Below, in pieces: positions 14,148 to 25,249 of a stretch of 64,000 bases of DNA. The stretch comes from Blattamonas nauphoetae (Eukaryota; Preaxostyla; Oxymonadida). The position numbers and the translations under genes were made by a program. How positions within the stretch are numbered: the stretch's first letter is position 1; every line of letters begins with the position of its first letter. Under the pieces are notes generated by a model, which saw nothing but the letters and a program-made list of their open reading frames with translations, did no database searches and was not told the DNA's origin. The stretch lies in NCBI GenBank assembly GCA_033064195.1, contig JARBJD010000229.1, positions 56,611-120,610 on the forward strand, given 5' to 3'.

Positions 14148-15912
14148 CAACTCCTCTCCTCTGCATGACGCGATCCAGTCCTCTCCCCTGCATGACGCGA
14201 TCCAGTCTTCTCCTCTGCATAACGCGATCCAGTCTTCTCCTCTGCATGGCGCGATCCAGTCTTCTCCTCTGCATGACGCGATCCAGTCTTCTCCTCTGCA
14301 TGACGCGATCCAGTCTTCTCCTCTGCATGACGCGATCCAGTCTTCTCCTCTGCATGACGCGATCCAGTCTTCTCCTCTGCATGACGCGATCCAGTCTTCT
14401 CCTCTGCATGACGCGATCCAGTCGTCTCCTCTGCATGACGCGATCCAGTCTTCTCCTCTGCATGACGCGATCCAGTCTTCTCCTCTGCATGACGCGATCC
14501 AGTCGTCTCCTCTGCATGACGCGATCCAGTCTTCTCCTCTGCATGACGCGATCCAGTCGTCTCCTCTGCATGACGCGATCCAGTCTTCTCCTCTGCATGA
14601 CGCGATCCAGTCTTCTCCTCTGCATGACGCGATCCAGTCTTCTCCCCTGCATGACGCGATCCAGTCTTCTCCTCTGCATGACGCGATCCAGTCCTCTCCC
14701 CTGCATGACGCGATCCAGTCTTCTCCTCTGCATAACGCGATCCAGTCTTCTCCTCTGCATGACGCGATCCAGTCTTCTCCTCTGCATGACGCGATCCAGT
14801 CGTCTCCTCTGCATGACGCGATCCAGTCTTCTCCTCTGCATGACGCGATCCAGTCTTCTCCTCTGCATGACGCGATCCAGTCTTCTCCTCTGCATGACGC
14901 GATCCAGTCTTCTCCTCTGCATGACGCGATCCAGTCTTCTCCTCTGCATGACGCGATCCAGTCTTCTCCTCTGCATGGCGCGATCCAGTCTTCTCCTCTG
15001 CATGACGCGATCCAGTCTTCTCCTCTGCATGACGCGATCCAGTCTTCTCCTCTGCATGACGCGATCCAGTCTTCTCCTCTGCATGACGCGATCCAGTCTT
15101 CTCCTCTGCGTGACGCGATCCAGTCTTCTCCTCTGCGTGACGCGATCCAGTCTTCTCCCCTTCATAGCGCGGTTCAGATCACTCCTCTGCATGACGCGAT
15201 CCAGTCTTCTCCTCTGCATGACGCGATCCAGTCTTCTCCTCTGCATGACGCGATCCAGTCTTCTCCTCTGCATGACGCGATCCAGTCTTCTCCTCTGCAT
15301 GACGCGATCCAGTCTTCTCCTCTGCGTGACGCGATCCAGTCTTCTCCTCTGCGTGACGCGATCCAGTCTTCTCCCCTTCATAGCGCGGTTCAGATCACTC
15401 CTCTGCATGACGCGATCCAGTCTTCTCCTCTGCATGATGCGATCCAGTCTTCTCCTCTGCATGACGCGATCCAGTCTTCTCCTCTGCATGACGCGATCCA
15501 GTCTTCTCCACTGCGTGACGCGATCCAGTCTTCTCCTCTGCATGACGCGATCCAGTCTTCTCCTCTGCATAACGCGATCCAGTCTTCTCCACTGCGTGAC
15601 GCGATCCAGTCTTCTCCTCTGCATGACGCGATCCAGTCTTCTCCTCTGCATGACGCGATCCAGTCTTCTCCTCTGCGTGACGCGATCCAGTCTTCTCCTC
15701 TGCGTGACGCGATCCAGTCTTCTCCCCTTCATAGCGCGATTCAGATCACTCCTCTGCATGACGCGATCCAGTCTTCTCCTCTGCATGACGCGATCCAGTC
15801 TTCTCCTCTGCATGACGCGATCCAGTCTTCTCCTCTGCATAACGCGATCCAGTCTTCTCCTCTGCATGGCGCGATCCAGACTTCTCCCCTTCATAGCGCG
15901 GTTCAGTCCTAT
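14148..15912. repeat. 27-base minisatellite inside the hAT element (~65 units)
   Basis: Unit tcttctcctctgcatgac followed by gcgatccag, 27 bases, with substitutions but almost no indels. As 27 is a multiple of three the repeat is open in two plus frames (SSPLHDAIQ nonapeptide; SLLLCMTRS) and one minus frame (RRRLDRVMQ). One plus frame forms a 643-codon ORF from 14035 to 15966 with unique ends; whether it is translated cannot be told. Three variant blocks with cttcatagcgc then gttcagatcactcc (near 15160, 15372 and 15722) mark a higher-order repeat of about 210-350 bases, a sign of segmental amplification within the array. Confidence 0.95.
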
Positions 15913-16235: not shown

Positions 16236-18639
16236 CTCACAAAAAGCACTTCTTCATCGAAGTACTCGTTCCAAACACAAAGCACTCACTGACGAATGAC
16301 GAGGAGAGAGGAGGAGGAGAGGCAACTCAAAATTTATGATGATCGTGTTCTGACAGTATTCTGGTGAAGATGTTGCGAGAGGGCATTTCTCCTAATCTCT
16401 CAGACATCCAGAAGTCCTGCTCCATCACCCAACACATTTCTTCCTTTTCGATGTTCCGTCTTGGCTTCCATCATTCCTCCACCACATCCACAATCCACCA
16501 TTCATCTGAAGGCGACGAGAGGAAACTTGCGATGGTGAGAAAGAGGGCAGCGAGTGAACAGACACCATCGTCAGTTGAGAAGAGGGGCAGCGAGTGAACG
16601 GACACCTTCGCCGGATGAGGAGAGCGACAGACAACGACGATCGGAGCGAGCATTGACATCTTCTGCTTCTGCGAAAGAGAGAAACTGTGCATCTCCATCA
16701 TTCCTTCCTCAACTCCAGATGATCTTAACAATCTCGAAACTCAGCAAGCAGCTGAACGACAGATGATTGTCTGCCCCCCTCGCAATCGCGTCGATTGACG
16801 ATCGGTTGTGGAAGCGGTGAGCGAGTCAAGTTGGGCGAGTTGTGTTCGTCGACTGCGACGGTGTGGATGGAATGTGGAGGTTGGAGTGGATGAGGAGAAG
16901 AAGGAAGGAAGTGATGAAGGGTGGGGAGAGACTGCTGTGGATGGCGTGGAAGAAAGATGTGGAAACACAGGCGAGCCATGTGCAGCGATGAGAAGTCTTT
17001 CGATTTCTGCTCATGGCTGTCCTCTGTCTTCATCCATCCAAACTGTCCAACGCTCATTCCAAGCAAGCTGATCAGACCAATCGAGGGTTCAACAGCAGGT
17101 CTTCCCCAATCTCCATCGGGACCGTTCAGCGTCCTTCCTTCGAGTGTCCCTTCAAGTCTTCCTTTCTCATCTCTCGAAGAACGATCTTCTCCGATTCGCA
17201 TCGTTCTTGATTCTTCACGTCCCAATCTGGCAACATCGTGTTTGTGTTAAAAGGAACTGGAATCGACATGTGGAATTCTGAGGTTGAGTCCTGGCCAAGA
17301 ACGGGAGGAAGATGGGCAGGGCACAAACAGCGTGAGGGATGGTGGAAGGGACTGATTCGGAGGAGTTGGGAATGACGAGATCCAAATCCCACCGATCAGA
17401 ATGTGAAGGTTTGGAGCGAGATCCGTTCAACCTCGCAAACAAGTCTGCGAAAGCAGAAAGAACGAGAACAAGCAGAACATGACGAAGAGGAACGAGAATC
17501 GTGTTTGAAAATCAATCATTCGGTGACCATTAAGTGAACGATGAAACACGGATGAGTGTCAAGACAGACTCATCAACAGTTCCTGTCTCCTTCACTCTCT
17601 CTCATCATCTTTCTCATCGTCTTCTTTTCGATCCTTGTCCTCCATTTCATCAGTCGGAGATACAACCAGCTCTTCCTTCGTCCACTCTCATCTCTCCACT
17701 CTGAACCGCCCGTGTCAATCTCAGACTCCACTCTCGCGCTGCCAATAGTGACCCCAGTGTCTCCAGCTGTTCTTGGTGTCACGAGACAGCACCGACGTAT
17801 AGAATGAGCGAAAGCGACGATGTCATGCGTCAAGTCATAATCGCGGCGACTGTGGAGACAAGACGGCAAGCCGCGAGGTCAGCGGTGTCTGTGTTCTGTC
17901 TGTCTGATCGTCTACACACCGCTGGACTGGCTTGTGTTGGTTCAGCTGAAGTCAGCCAACAGCAATCTCAACCATCCCTCGAGTGCGGTTGGGGTGGGTT
18001 TGGCGATGAGTGAGATGACAGCTGGTCATCAGTTGAAGTGTCGTTGGCGAGAGCGACGAAATGTGAGGCCGAGTTTCATCTTCCGCGGCGGAGACAGGCG
18101 GAGAGATGTGCGGGAGGGGAGTCGTGGACTTCTTCCACTTCGCCTCTTCTGCCTCTTCTCACTCTTCTTGCTTCTCTCCCTCACGTCCATGTCTGGGGAT
18201 CCGTTCTGCTTGTCCAGCATCCTCCCACTTCGAGTGGCACTGCCGCTCTTCCTCGTCTTCCTCTCGCCTGCTCTTTTCGTTGGGGGTCCCCTTCCCTAAA
18301 CTTCTTCTTCATCCATCTCACCCTTCCACTCCTCCGACTCTCGCCCTCTCAATTCTTCGACGGTGTCCTGTCGTTTCTCATCGACTTCCTTCTTCTGGCT
18401 CCCCTCGTCTTCCCATCTCTGTCCTCATTTCTCTTCATTCTTTCACTTGCATTGCAGTTTGGAGTGGAATCTTCCATGATGAAGGAAGAGAGGAGGGAAG
18501 GGTGAAGAACTCGACGACAAGACTCATCAAGCGAGGGAGGAAGACAGTCGAGGTGAGCGTTGCTTTTGCATCAAACGAACAGCAGCCATCACGCGGAACA
18601 ACGAGTGTGGTGAGGGGAGTGATAGAGGGGAATGGGAGG
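16236..18639. repeat. Intergenic stretch and duplicated module copy 3
   Basis: 16236-16980 has no recognisable gene. About 17030-18600 repeats the module seen at 4060-5590 in the same order, ending with the pre-array sequence aacgaacagcagccatcacg. Open frames differ between copies, so it is treated as non-coding. Confidence 0.6.
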
Positions 18640-20405
18640 GAGCTGGTGGTGAGGGAGAGGCAGAGGGGAGTGGGAGGGTGAGGGTGGTGAGGGAGAGGCA
18701 GAGGGGAGAGGGAGGGTGTGGGTGGTGAGGGAGAGGCAGAGGGGAGTGGGAGGGTGTGGGTGGTGAGGGAGAGGCAGAGGGAGTGGGAGGGTGTGGGTGG
18801 TGAGGGAGAGGCAGAGGGAGTGGGAGGGTGTGGGTGGTGAGGGAGAGGCAGAGGGAGAGGGAGGGTGTGGGTGGTGAGGGAGAGGCAGAGGGAGTGGGAG
18901 AGTGTGGGTGGTGAGGGAGAGGCAAAGGGAGTGGGAGGGTGTGGGTGGTGAGGGAGAGGCAGAGGGGAGAGGGAGGGTGTGGGTGGTGAGGGAGAGGCAG
19001 AGGGGAGTGGGAGGGTGTGGGTGGTGAGGGAGAGGCAGAGGGGAGAGGGAGGGTGTGGGTGGTGAGGGAGAGGCAGAGGGGAGTGGGAGGGTGTGGGTGG
19101 TGAGGGAGAGGCAGAGGGAGAGGGAGGGTGTGGGTGGTGAGGAGAGGCAGAGGGAGTGGGAGGGTGTGGGTGGTGAGGAGAGGCAGAGGGAGTGGGAGGG
19201 TGTGGGTGGTGAGGGAAAGGCAGAGGGAGTGGGAGGGTGTGAGTGGTGAAGGGAGGGGCAGAGGGAGTGGGATGGTGTGGGTGGTGAGGGAGGGTAGAGG
19301 GAGTGGGAGGGTGTGGGTGGTGAGGGGGCGAGGGCAGAGGGGAGTGGCGGGGTGTGGGTGGTGAGGGGGAGGCAGAGGGGTGGGGAGGGTGGGTGGAAGA
19401 AAGGGAGGGGAGAGGGGGTGGGAGGGTGTGGTGGTGAGGGAGAGACAGAGGGAGTGGGAGGGTGTGGGTGGTGAGGGGGAGAGGCAGAGGGAGTGGGAGG
19501 GTGTGGGTGGTGAGGGAGGCAGAGGGGTGGGAGGGTGTGGGTGGTGAGGGAGAGGCAGAGGGTGGGAGGATGTGGGTGGTGAGGGAGAGGCAGAGGGAGT
19601 GCAGGGGTGTGAGTGGTGAAGGGAGAGGCAGAGGGAGTGGGAGGGTGTGGGTGGTGAGGGGAGAGGCAGAGGGGAGAGGGAGGGTATAGGTGTGGTGAGG
19701 GAGGCAGAGAGGGAGTGGGAGGGTGTGGGTGGTGAGGGAGGCAGAGGGGAGAGGGAGGGTGTGGGTGGTGAGGGAGAGCGGGGAGTGGGAGGGTGTGGGT
19801 GAGGTGAGGGGAGAGGCAGAGGGTGGGAGGGTGTGGGTGGTGAGGGAGAGGCAGAGGGAGTGGGAGGGCGTGGGTGGTGAGGGGAGAGGCAGAGGGAGTG
19901 GGAGGGTGCGGGTGGTGAGGGAGAGGCAGAGGGAGTGGGAGGGTGTGGGTGAGGTGAGGGGAGAGGCCAGAGGGGAGAGGGAGGGTGTGGGTGGTGAGGG
20001 GAGGCGGGGGGTGGGAGGGTGTGGGTGGTGAGGGGAGAGGCAGAGGGAGTGGGAGGGTGTGGGTGGTGAGGGAGAGGCAGAGGGAGAGGGAGGGTGTGGG
20101 TGGTGAGGGAGAGGCAGAGGGGTGGGAGGGTGTGGGTGGTGAGGGAGAGGCAGAGAGTGGGAGGGTGTGGGTGGTGAGGGAGAGGCAGAGGAGTGGGAGG
20201 GTGTGGGTGGAAGGGGAGAGGGAAGAGGAGTGGCGGGGTGTGGGTGGTGAGGAGAGGCAGAGGGGGAGTGGGAGGGTGTGGGTGGTGAGGGAGAGGCAGA
20301 GGGGAGTGGCAGGGTGTGGGTGGTGAGGGAGAGGCAGAGGGGAGTGGGAGGGTGTGAGTGGTGAAGGGAGGGGCAGAGGGAGTGGGATGGTGTGGGTGGT
20401 GAGGG
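18640..20405. repeat. 38-base G-rich minisatellite, array 3 (~46 units, most degenerate)
   Basis: Longest of the four arrays. The left third is regular; the right two thirds contain many single-base gains and losses inside G runs (units of 33-42 bases). These could be real mutations or assembly/sequencing errors in homopolymers. The array ends about 450 bases downstream of the family pseudogene stop at 20859. Confidence 0.93.
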
Positions 20406-21272
20406 AGCAGTGATCGAGAATGGTCATCAACTGTGCGATGGCATCTTCCGATCATTCCGAATCGGCGTCGGAAGTGTCAGTTGATGCGCGAGGGAGATCC
20501 AGAATGCGGAGGCAGAGAGGCAGATGGTGCCGGTTCACTCATCTCAAGATTGCATTCAATCTTCAAGAGAGCTCCGTTTGAGAGAACAGTCAGTAACAAT
20601 CACCGAGAGACACACTCCCAGTAATCGTCACCATCGATCCATCGATACTTTGTCTTCCACAAAGGAGCAGTGGAAGCAGTGCGAGAGTGGCGGTGAACGA
20701 GAGTGTGGTGACAAACGAGGGTGACTCGCAAGAGAATCCCAATCATTTGGGTAAATGATGAGGTGATGCCAGAGCCGACAAAGATCACACACAAACAGTG
20801 TTTGTTGTCCAAACGAAGCCAGAAACTGTTCGAAACGTTCGCTGGATCTTCACTGTTTCTACCAAAACCCTGGACGGTTTAAGCCCTGCAATCCGTTCCA
20901 ATCAATCGAGCCGGCAACATTCCATCTTCCGAAAAGGGTAGTTTTGTCGTTTTGCAGCTTTTCCTCAATCACATCTTCGATGCCCTCCATTCTCAACATT
21001 CGATGCTCTATCTTTCCCATCTGTCGCACGTATCCGCCTTTTTCGTTCCATTCCCGCTGGGTATCATTCATACAACCCAGAAAAGGGGAGATTGCGTCAT
21101 CATTCTCGAAGAATGTTAGACAACTGGTGATCGTGAGAAAGACAGGCGTATTCAGAACAAAGTCCATTGTCGGTTGATCAGAAGGACATATTTGGAGGAT
21201 TCGGGCGAGAAATGTCAGGAAACTTTTGGATTGTTCACCATCGACGATCGAAAAGCGGTTCACGCACAAATG

Positions 21273-24248
21273 TGTGAAATGGGACCCAATCTTCTTCACT
21301 TTGTTCCCTCCATAATTACACACCTGAAATTGTGTCATGCAACTTTCCGTTGTCCATTTCTCGATTTTCCTACAAAATCTATCAACAAAAATTCCCATAA
21401 TTCTAATTTGAGATGCCGAAAACCAAAGAACTACTGAACCGAAGACAGAAATTGAAGAAATATGAAAAGCTGAAGAAGGAAATGAACCGAATTCAAATGG
21501 GACTCAGGCGGATCAAAGATGGATTGGAACAAATCTTTGAGGAGAGTTCACTCCTTGAAAAAGACTTAATTCGACGAATCTATGCTCTTGTCGAAGATAT
21601 TTATCAAGATGATTTCGAAGATATGCTGAATCATTCTCCTTACATGCGGAGAGTAGCAAAAGATTATGCTCAAGCAGGAATCTGGCATCAAACACGCTTC
21701 TTACCACCAGAACCGGATTCAGCACGAACTCCGTCCCTTCACGATATTGCCATCTTTCATTCATATCTCACAAGTATTTCCACGAATTCCAGTGAAGATT
21801 CAATAAAATTACGAGGTATGACATCTCTTTCTTTTTTTCAACCAATAATTTTGTTTTTTAGTCACTGAACAAATTCTCACTTCTCAAACTGAAGAAACCA
21901 ACACCATCGATGAATACGATGAATCTGGTGATCGAACCGGTATGAAAAAGTTCTTCTTTCTTGAGAAAAGCATTGCTCATATCATTCCTTTCCTTGTTCA
22001 TTATACAAGATAACCTAGTCCCTGTTTTGACTCTCATTTCTGCATTCTTAGACTTTTATTGGATAGATGAACTAAAGGAGAAAAGGAAATTGAAGGACTT
22101 TCGGAAAAAACGCCAAAAAGCAAGAAAACGAATGACTAAGACGGAAAGAACGCGAACAGACAATCTTTTCTCCCAACTCCAGTTCAGGGCAAGTGTTCAC
22201 GCTCACGGTATTCCCTCATCTTTCATTCATCGACACGCCAGCATCAGAAAAGAAAGGTAGAAGCACTAGCCATTCGCATGAAGAGATCAATCCATTGCTG
22301 ATGCCCATCTCAGTAGACGTGCATGAATTTTCACAATCGATGCTTGTTGACAGTGCGGAAGATGCAGCTCCAGAGTCGTCAATTTCTAGTGATGAATCTC
22401 ACCTCGAAGAAGCCGACTCTGATGATGACTATTTTCCCCCTTATTTTGACCTAGTTTACAGGTCCAGCTCGGATGACTTTACGAAAATGGAATTACTAGT
22501 TCATTCAGGATCATACTGTTCTTCATCTCGATCAGAACTTCGCATGATAGGCATCCAGGGCGTTTTCCCGTTGTTCAATTCAATTCGCCTCGTCCTCGAA
22601 CCAAAAGCACTGATTTTCAGGGATTTCTTGCATCTGTTCCCCGATACCACATTATCACTTGACAAAATGAAACGATTGACGCAGGGATGTGTCAAACAGG
22701 CTGAGAACAGGACTGATGTGTGTGACATCTGTGAAGTGTGGGATCGAGCTCGCTGCGCAGATATACCGACCCAAACGAAAGAACAACTCGAAAAACTAGT
22801 CCGCCGGCATCGGGAGGAGGCCATTAATCAGCAAGTTCAACACAAAATAGATATCGATTCTCTTCAAGATTCAGAATGTGTATACGTTTTAGATTACAAA
22901 GAAAACATGAAAATTCCCTTCTCCAAATCTGAAAAGGGTCAAAATTTTTTCACTATGGCCCCCGTGACAGTATTGACCATGTGTTGCTGGAAGAAGATCG
23001 GAGCCCAGGCCACCCAACGCATTTTTACCATATTCAGTCCATTCCTCAGGCATACAGCAGATTTTACCGTCCATTGCATCCAACATATCTTTTCCGACAA
23101 CTATTTTTCTGACGTCAGGATCATCAAGCATTGGAGCGACGGTGGGCCTCATTTCCGGTCTAATCAATTTGCAACATTCATCCTCTGCAATGCACACCAC
23201 AACTTCAAGCCATTTCAGTCATCTCTGAATTATTTCTGGCCGCATCACGGCAAAAACCACTGTGACAGAGTCTTTGCCCTCCTATCTCGAATAATCCACA
23301 ATCGAAAACCTTTCCAAACAATTGAAGACCTCACCCAACTTCAACAGTTTTTCGAACGAAACACTGCATCTCTCCCCTCCACATATAAACGAGGCTCAAA
23401 CATTTATCGTTTTAAAGTGTTTGTTTTGCTTTTTATGAGGTCTCACCATTTTTGTAGAGTTTTGGACTACGTTCCATCGTCATCAACGTCAATCTGTGCT
23501 ATTCCTCATTTTACGAAATATCTGCACCATCACATCAGTGGTGAGTACATTGTGTCAGCGCCACTCTCTGGGGCTCATATAACAGAAGGGATAGACACTC
23601 TAGTACAATTTACGACTCGAATCTTGCACCTTAAATCAAAATGTTCAACTGTCCCTCTAAAAAAAGCCCCTGCCCTCCTTGGAGAGGTGTTCAAATGTTT
23701 AGAATCGCTCCAAGCCAGATTCCAAGAGCCTTGTGGCAAAGGTTCCGATCAAACAGTGACTTGGCACGAAGATGATTCCGATCCAACTAAAACCCGATCA
23801 GATTGTGATCAATATGCTTCAGATGATGACGGTTTTCTCGCAGATTGAGGTTGGTTGAATTGTCGGGCGCATTGGTTTGTTCCTTTCAAAAAGCTGTGGT
23901 ATGTCATTCTTTTCTTCTGTATTGTCTCTCCTTTCGTCCAAACGTGTCAGGCCTTCGTTGATGTACTGATTCTCACATAAAAAAGAATCTGGATCCAGCT
24001 CATCAAATATTGTGAAACCAATCTTGTCGATTGGAATTCGGAAGGAGTTCAATCTTTGTTTTAACATCACAGTGAGACCGTGTCCTTATAAGAGGGAATT
24101 GCGGAGAATGTAAGTCTCAATTTTTGTGTTCATTTTCTGGGAGTTGGAGGACTTCAACGCTTATCGGACACTGTTTCTCAAACAATCAAGGTGAAAGGAC
24201 AGAGTCTATATGACGAAATTCGATACCAAGATTGGGTCCCATTTCACA
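21273..24248 (+). mobile_element. 3-kb DNA transposon encoding an intron-rich DDE-like protein
   Basis: Bounded by inverted repeats TGTGAAATGGGACCCAATCT (21273 onward) and its complement ending at 24248, perfect over 21 bases including the next T. Flanks are CAAATG (21267-21272) and CAAATA (24249-24254), a 5-6 base target duplication; the repeat match could be extended by two bases each way, leaving the boundary ambiguous by that amount. Excision restores the interrupted family gene. Carries one four-exon gene. The superfamily is not recognised. Confidence 0.85.
21413..23848 (+). CDS. Putative transposase, novel DDE-like, four exons
   Basis: Exons 21413-21815, 21862-21939, 22052-22207 and 22242-23848 join into 747 residues. 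The three introns (46, 112 and 34 bases) are all phase 1, begin G|GTAT and end TAG or CAG. The N-terminus is a charged coiled-coil (about residues 10-50), then a Lys/Arg-rich stretch (KEKRKLKDFRKKRQKARKR, probably a nuclear signal) and an acidic linker. A Cys-x2-Cys motif (CDICEVWDRARC, about residue 372) precedes the candidate catalytic core: Asp in LDYKEN (~430), Asp in HWSDGGPHFR (~512) and Asp in HHGKNHCDR (~554). That spacing (82 and 42) fits an RNase H-fold DDD transposase. It is unlike the hAT protein at 11.6 kb. Position inside a TIR/TSD-bounded element is the main support. Confidence 0.7.
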
Positions 24249-24360
24249 CAAATAGCAAATGTACTGCTCCGAAGGCATCAGAACTTGCGTTAAAACCGTA
24301 TCCAAAACCTCGTATTGTTCAGTTTCATCTTTAATTCTGAGTAGTGCGATACTATCCGGT

Positions 24361-25249
24361 CAGTCACGGACAAAAGTAAGTGGCCACCCTTGCCTGGATT
24401 TATGAACAGGTGGTTTTTTCTGATTTTTTCATAAACACCTCACAACAATGGAAGAACACAATTTTTCGAATATAAAACAAAAAGAGTGTGGTGAAGTGAA
24501 AATCGAGATGAGCGAATGGATCAAGTTCAGAGGTCAATCCTATTGCGGCAACCTTAACACATCTCCTCTCTCTGGAGGAGGAGATGTGACGAGTGTAGTC
24601 TGTCCCTCCACTGAGAACAGTCTGTCTCCTCTCGTACCTGAGATCTTGTTCGAAATGTGGCGAAAATGTGAGAATCATATCTTTTTTATCCCTCATCCGT
24701 CATCCTTTTAGACACAGTAATTGCTTTCACTGGTACCAAGAATGAAATTTCTCTCTTCTTATCAAATGTTGTGACATGGTGTAGAGAAAATGAGATTCGC
24801 ACGTTTTGAGCACAATTGGAACATTCCCGATTTATCAGTACTCTGACAGATGTATACAGATACAGTATTCCCAAGAGGAGATAGAGCGTTTGGGATCAAT
24901 ATAAGGATTGTTGATGAGGGATAAAAAAGATATGATTCTCACATTTTCGCCACATTTCGAACAAGATCTCAGGTACGAGAGGAGACAGACTGTTCTCAGT
25001 GGAGGGACAGACTACACTCGTCACATCTCCTCCTCCAGAGAGAGGAGATGTGTTAAGGTTGCCGCAATAGGATTGACCTCTGAACTTGATCCATTCGCTC
25101 ATCTCGATTTTCACTTCACCACACTCTTTTTGTTTTATATTCGAAAAATTGTGTTCTTCCATTGTTGTGAGGTGTTTATGAAAAAATCAGAAAAAACCAC
25201 CTGTTCATAAATCCAGGCAAGGGTGGCCACTTACTTTTGTCCGTGACTG
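24361..25249. mobile_element. Foldback (long-TIR) element, 889 bases
   Basis: Two arms, 24361-24696 and 24914-25249, are inverted copies that look identical over 336 bases, separated by a 217-base spacer. The ends read CAGTCACGGACAAAAGTAAG, reminiscent of Tc1/mariner ends, but the host duplication is GGT (24358-24360 and 25250-25252), not TA. Each arm contains an 87-98 codon open frame and an internal palindrome around acatctcctc...gaggagatgt. Excision restores the family gene frame. Arm identity indicates recent insertion or arm homogenisation. Confidence 0.85.

Follow-up and report, generated by a model that had tools for sequence, protein, structure and literature searches.

We analysed a 64,000-nucleotide stretch of the genome of the oxymonad Blattamonas nauphoetae (assembly GCA_033064195.1, contig JARBJD010000229.1, positions 56,611–120,610; GC content, 48.4%; hereafter the window) and found that positions 21272–24249 very probably constitute an autonomous DNA transposon with terminal inverted repeats (TIRs) and a DDD-type transposase (probability of roughly 0.88). 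The element is 2,978 bp long with ends GTGTG..CACAC, which were placed by comparing the flanks of its copies. The inverted arms (21271–21293 and 24228–24250) span 23 nt and are 100% complementary; because the outermost base of each arm is part of the target duplication, the TIR measures 22 nt—perfect, as an initial annotation of this DNA had described it, with the length corrected from 21 nt. That annotation had also proposed a target duplication of 5–6 bases, which the flanks of copies and the empty sites replace with one of 4 bp (AAAT). A 5-bp duplication (CAAAT) suits the copies on contigs C145 and C734 and fails at those on C833 and C90, and the 4-bp reading suits 10 of 12 paired elements (C numbers denote contigs of the assembly; C145 holds the window copy).

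Further copies with the same ends, for which the initial annotation had recommended a search, are present in the genome (88,311,006 bases in 837 contigs searched). The TIR pattern GTGTGAAATGGGACCC, with one mismatch allowed, occurs at 27 ends, compared with 0 for the reversed control pattern; these ends make up 12 paired elements, including the window copy, and 3 single ends. Three elements are full-length copies of approximately 2.98 kb (C145, C90 and C217, the latter two 99.6% and 99.4% identical to the window copy), seven are short (approximately 1.08 kb; C93, C96, C223, C304, C323, C734 and C833) and two are longer (C213, 4.66 kb; C278, 5.04 kb). Identical 4-bp duplications, all of the form ANNT, flank 10 of the 12 pairs: AAAT (C145, C90, C278 and C734), AATT (C93, C323 and C213), ATTT (C96 and C223) and AGTT (C833). 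The element is recently mobile. The first 141 bp (21272–21412) differ from the window copy at five positions in both C90 and C217, with no difference in exon 1, exon 2 or any of the three introns; gene conversion of the left end could account for these differences.

Insertion is also documented by empty sites. The 244 nt obtained by joining the two sides of the window insertion match 40 listed places (scoring covered 40 of the 803 first-look candidates), of which 38 cross the junction and 2 are the window's own flanks. Three empty paralogous sites were inspected and align gaplessly through ACAAAT, a result that is strong evidence for the insertion and places it in one member of a large family of host genes. 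Joining the flanks yields a minus-strand host frame that is open for 172 amino acids, so the restoration of the host frame on excision claimed initially does hold, although it is weak evidence because the element and one duplication together measure 2,982 bp, a multiple of three that keeps the frame anyway. No host frame of more than 80 amino acids emerged when the element on C90 was removed in silico.

The transposon carries one gene with four exons and three GT–AG introns, all in phase 1 (Table 1). The single gene with three short phase-1 introns that had been proposed was reproduced, its predicted exon structure giving a product of 747 amino acids. In copies that are approximately 68–72% identical (C745, C383 and C61), the predicted introns 1 and 2 retain GT and AG, with intron 2 varying most in length, and intron 3 is retained in C61 and has both edges displaced in C745 and C383. 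Substitution patterns indicate that the frames of exons 1 and 4 are under purifying selection. Exon 1 compared with the 72%-identical copy C745 has a non-synonymous rate (dN) of 0.108 and a synonymous rate (dS) of 0.609 (dN/dS of approximately 0.18), and exon 4 compared with the 434-amino-acid open reading frame (ORF) of C745 has non-synonymous and synonymous proportions (pN and pS) of 0.193 and 0.73 (dN/dS of approximately 0.08, with dS saturated). In Pfam, exon 1 matched only sub-threshold coiled-coil models (best, NET2A_C; E = 4.8e-4, 20.5 bits versus a cut-off of 27).

Table 1 Window coordinates of the repeats, predicted exons and introns, and presumed functional residues of the transposon
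Feature	Position	Strand	Details
Left target site duplication	21268..21271	.	AAAT, 4 bp; empty paralogous sites agree
Left TIR	21272..21293	+	22 nt, perfect, starts GTGTGAAATGGGACCC
Exon 1 (predicted)	21413..21815	+	403 nt, ATG start, 134 codons + 1 nt
Intron 1 (predicted)	21816..21861	+	46 nt, GT-AG, phase 1; GT and AG retained in C745, C383 and C61
Exon 2 (predicted)	21862..21939	+	78 nt
Intron 2 (predicted)	21940..22051	+	112 nt, GT-AG, phase 1; 54 nt shorter in C61
Exon 3 (predicted)	22052..22207	+	156 nt, basic
Intron 3 (predicted)	22208..22241	+	34 nt, GT-AG, phase 1; least certain intron
Exon 4 (predicted)	22242..23848	+	1607 nt, 534 codons, frame from 22244; carries CxxC...H and the D-D-D triad
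CxxC motif	22709..22735	+	RTDVCDICE; C160 and C163 conserved in 29/29 covered segments
D430 (exon-4 D217)	22892..22894	+	Presumed first catalytic Asp, in LDYKEN (starts 429)
D512 (exon-4 D299)	23138..23140	+	Presumed second catalytic Asp, in HWSDGGPHFR (starts 509)
D554 (exon-4 D341)	23264..23266	+	Presumed third catalytic Asp, in HHGKNHCDR (starts 547)
Right TIR	24228..24249	-	22 nt, perfect
Right target site duplication	24250..24253	.	AAAT, 4 bp; empty paralogous sites agree

The predicted protein contains the motifs LDYKEN, HWSDGGPHFR and HHGKNHCDR with acidic spacings of 82 and 42, exactly as first reported. Exon 4 matches 82 places in the genome (E ≤ 0.01; scores were computed for 81 of the 426 candidates) at identities from 100% down to 26%, several of these places being fragments of a single copy, and on this similarity the window protein belongs to a large and diverse family in this genome. 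Alignments of 11 members (A1) and 17 members (A2) have in common RTDxCxxC, a later histidine, DFKEN, SDxGPHFR and HGKNxCD; the exceptions in A2 are L066, without CxxC, and L073, without the third aspartate and with DFKEN partly lost (L numbers denote family loci). Residues were counted in 40 profile-matched segments (ORFs of at least 150 amino acids, E ≤ 1e-10), considering only segments that cover the position. In exon-4 numbering, the triad is conserved in 28/29 (D217), 32/32 (D299) and 30/30 (D341) of these segments, as are C160, C163 and H189 (29/29 each) and E220 (28/30). The two cysteines of CxxC and H189 are possible zinc ligands. At L019 and L020, the transposase ORFs adjoin long tandem arrays whose open frames read as TRDAEDDCEH-like and TANTLAMLKM-like repeats.

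The genome also contains a sister subfamily. L037 (on C44) is a 2,431-bp element that has the TIR GTGTAGTTCTCAATG, AGAT on both sides and a transposase ORF. The sister pattern ANNTGTGTARTTCTCAATGAAAT, which prefers A and T at its outer positions and tolerates mismatches there, occurs with up to three mismatches at 300 genome ends (147 + 153), compared with 0 for its reversed control. Among the 100 of these ends that were listed, 58 were used, all on contigs that might contain pairs. These gave 26 pairs, and in 25 the 4-bp ANNT duplications are identical. In size, 25 of the 26 are 441–449 bp, as expected of miniature inverted-repeat transposable elements (MITEs), and the remaining one is the 2,431-bp element. 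C9:26973–27429 exemplifies the MITEs of 449 bp that belong to the sister transposase, a family with GTGT ends and 4-bp ANNT duplications. Two other family loci have TIRs: those of L018 are 124 nt long (98%) with no clear duplication, and L030 has flanks ACAC and ACAT, with one mismatch. At C734:161358–161396, a sister-family TIR end adjoins a short copy of the window's family, as if one element had inserted at the other's edge.

The motifs are most likely those of an RNase H fold with a DDD active site (D430, D512 and D554). Crude propensities over A2 place strands at the D217 segment, the two that follow, the D299 segment and before HGKN, with the helix after D341 not recovered, which weakly suggests the strand order expected of RNase H as laid out in a section of PMC8230255. 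By analogy with DDE/D transposases, catalysis would depend on metal and movement would be by cut-and-paste rather than by copying: the spliced 747-amino-acid transposase would bind the TIRs, excise the element at them and integrate it at ANNT target sites through 4-bp staggered cuts, the repair of which would leave 4-bp duplications. The same transposase, or a close relative, would also mobilise the short derivatives (MITEs).

Several observations weigh against parts of this interpretation. The duplications are not identical in 2 of the 12 pairs, each differing by one base (C217, ATAT/AGAT; C304, AAAT/AATT), and the ubiquity of ANNT is also formally compatible with a 2-bp duplication and TIRs one base longer. 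C90 and C217 are frame-broken in this assembly, perhaps through assembly errors, which leaves the window copy as the only one of the three full copies with an unbroken exon 4. The segments used for the residue counts had been preselected (E ≤ 1e-10), and the same copy may be present in two loci. Two single-sequence AlphaFold2 models, built without an alignment, have mean predicted local distance difference test scores of 34.8 and 36.7 and are uninformative on the fold, and the window protein itself has no match to DUF7869, the Pfam family considered below, at E ≤ 1. The broken frames could speak for a degenerate repeat, or for inverted repeats that flank a host gene by chance, but this explanation is refuted by the empty paralogous sites and further opposed by the target duplications, the short and multiple copies and the purifying selection, and we regard its probability as negligible.

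Placement of the transposase within the known diversity is less certain. The initial annotation had described a DDE-type transposase outside the families that can be named; the DDD-type TIR transposon stands, but a position outside every known family is not accepted, because both the DDD triad and the 4-bp duplication have been published for Sola. Likewise, the profile searches that it had called for returned no family over the cut-off, but they did yield a sub-threshold likeness to DUF7869, and by description Sola shares the hallmarks of the element. For A1 members, neither Pfam nor NCBIfam has a family over its cut-off and PHROGs gave weak matches only; the best E values in NCBIfam and PHROGs (0.016 and 0.014), a match of one member to an IS3 transposase (E = 0.21) and the best hit of a PADLOC scan (E = 0.0093) were all taken as chance. 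PDB sequences gave no match beyond a single chance-level row (E = 0.79). No relatives were found in IMG/VR (28 pattern matches, none confirmed), GTDB genomes (35 pattern matches, none confirmed) or plasmid and phage collections, searches from which records of the host's own genome may have been excluded. A literature search on the family motif strings, DUF7869 and PF25273 found nothing.

The nearest Pfam family for the catalytic part is DUF7869 (PF25273), for which the library states no function. DUF7869 proteins occur in animals and other eukaryotes. The profile matches 2 of the 17 A2 members at E ≤ 1 (L063, E = 2.6e-4, 21.1 bits; L072, E = 0.012, 15.6 bits), the best score falling short of the cut-off of 26 bits. 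These sub-threshold matches span the regions of the second and third aspartates in distant members. In the reverse search of the genome, DUF7869 hit three places at E ≤ 1, all three being family members (C279, C259 and C475); C279 and C259 are among the exon-4 matches, and C475 matches A1 (E = 3.4e-47). Two animal-type consensus sequences serve as leads rather than tests, because they were written after the family had been seen and may be biased. One of them found 59 genome places (best E = 9e-8), 31 of which overlap exon-4 matches; 6 of the other 28 were inspected and all 6 are family members. Both aligned to A1 with hhalign scores of 51.7 and 47.3, compared with 29.8 and 23.4 for the best of 150 shuffles each and 23.1 for a MULE ORF with a PF10551 match; against IMG/VR, the two found nothing.

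We file the element either as a divergent Sola-like transposon or as an unnamed DDD lineage; a new superfamily is not proven. Membership of the Sola superfamily (Sola1, 2 or 3), as a divergent branch, is a serious candidate, although we place it somewhat below even odds. A passage of PMC10741241 ascribes to Sola a DDD transposase, 4-bp duplications, TIRs of 11–1,124 bp and sizes of mostly 2–9 kb, and the likeness of our element to Sola1–3, compared by description only, extends to the triad, duplication, TIRs and size; the triad is conserved in sequence across the family, and the duplications recur in 10 of 12 pairs and in 25 of 26 sister pairs. Against this, none of the listed Pfam matches bears a Sola name. 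An unnamed eukaryotic superfamily that includes the DUF7869 proteins is a tentative proposal. DUF7869 is the only Pfam family with E < 0.001 against A2 members, the aspartates of L063 line up with its profile at an ungapped offset (the second at position 64 in L063 and in a DUF7869-like consensus, and the third at positions 106 and 109, respectively), and the animal-type consensus sequences, as leads only, score above shuffles and the MULE ORF. However, every DUF7869 score lies under 26 bits and only distant members score, the consensus sequences were written after the family had been seen, and DUF7869 may itself already be a named superfamily. About equally tentative is the fuller version in which the superfamily would be ancient, homologous to DUF7869, and recently active and abundant in this oxymonad genome; with the same reserve, its signature would be RTDxCxxC–H–DFKEN–SDxGPHFR–HGKNxCD with 5'-GTGT..ACAC-3' ends and 4-bp ANNT duplications.

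Assignment to another known superfamily is unlikely. A very divergent member of MULE, hAT, P, Kolobok or Dada is an especially improbable case: all have RNase H-fold transposases and the second aspartate here stands in an SD-G context, but in A1, inspected by eye, the stretch from the second to the third aspartate lacks a conserved C/DxxH, the signature that passages of PMC9587614 and PMC10045372 give for these groups, and the other members do not share the CNAH present in the window copy. MULE transposases are abundant in the genome (PF10551, 121 places at E ≤ 1), none of these places overlaps the exon-4 family matches by eye, PF10551 does not match the family proteins, and, aligned to A1, a MULE ORF from the genome does no better than the best shuffles; we rejected MULE on these grounds. 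According to sections of PMC10045372, MuDR and IS256 make 4–10-bp duplications, so the 4-bp length alone leaves MuDR possible; Ginger1 and part of IS481EU also make 4-bp duplications, and the PHIS group (Harbinger, ISL2EU and relatives) makes duplications of 0–4 bp. These groups are disfavoured because no matching Pfam model was found, rather than by duplication length, general protein scans having returned no Pfam match of PHIS type. Ginger1 in addition has CCGG/CCGT targets and an integrase-type domain (in the part of PMC2836005 consulted), whereas we found ANNT duplications and no integrase-type Pfam match to the family proteins. piggyBac and Kolobok also produce 4-bp duplications but are TTAA-specific (a passage of PMC9587614); here the duplications are AAAT, AATT, ATTT, AGTT, AGAT and others (ANNT), with GTGT..ACAC ends. 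The CMCT group (CACTA/EnSpm, Mirage, Chapaev, Transib and Plavaka) has RNase H-type transposases with zinc motifs, but here CxxC lies upstream of the first aspartate, the second and third are only 42 residues apart, and the C(2)C and H(3–4)H motifs between the second aspartate and the last acidic residue are absent from A1 and A2 (by eye). KDZ/Zisupton (PF18758) was rejected with no protein match and an 8-bp duplication in place of the 4 bp found here; its model hit 0 genome places and none in control genomes either.

Other repeats surround the transposon in the window. Two minisatellite arrays, both open in several frames, occupy 14155–15908 (27-bp unit, 65 repeats) and 18607–20407 (38-bp unit, 48 repeats). 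A fold-back element at 24361–25249, with 350-nt arms that are 99% complementary and separated by 189 nt, lies approximately 110 bp away from the transposon; both sit in one host gene copy, which seems to have been interrupted twice.

We take the host to be a gut protist that apparently lacks a mitochondrion. Approximately 20 transposon superfamilies are catalogued in eukaryotes (in a section of PMC9587614). If the family is unnamed, it would add a transposase lineage to this catalogue and suggest a transposase function for DUF7869; if it belongs to Sola, the genome of this oxymonad would harbour that superfamily, represented by a recent copy that is still intact and, in one sister family, by 300 TIR ends. 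Unclassified repeats make up 35% of the Monocercomonoides exilis assembly (as stated in a passage of PMC8767320), and the family described here could aid the classification of oxymonad repeats.
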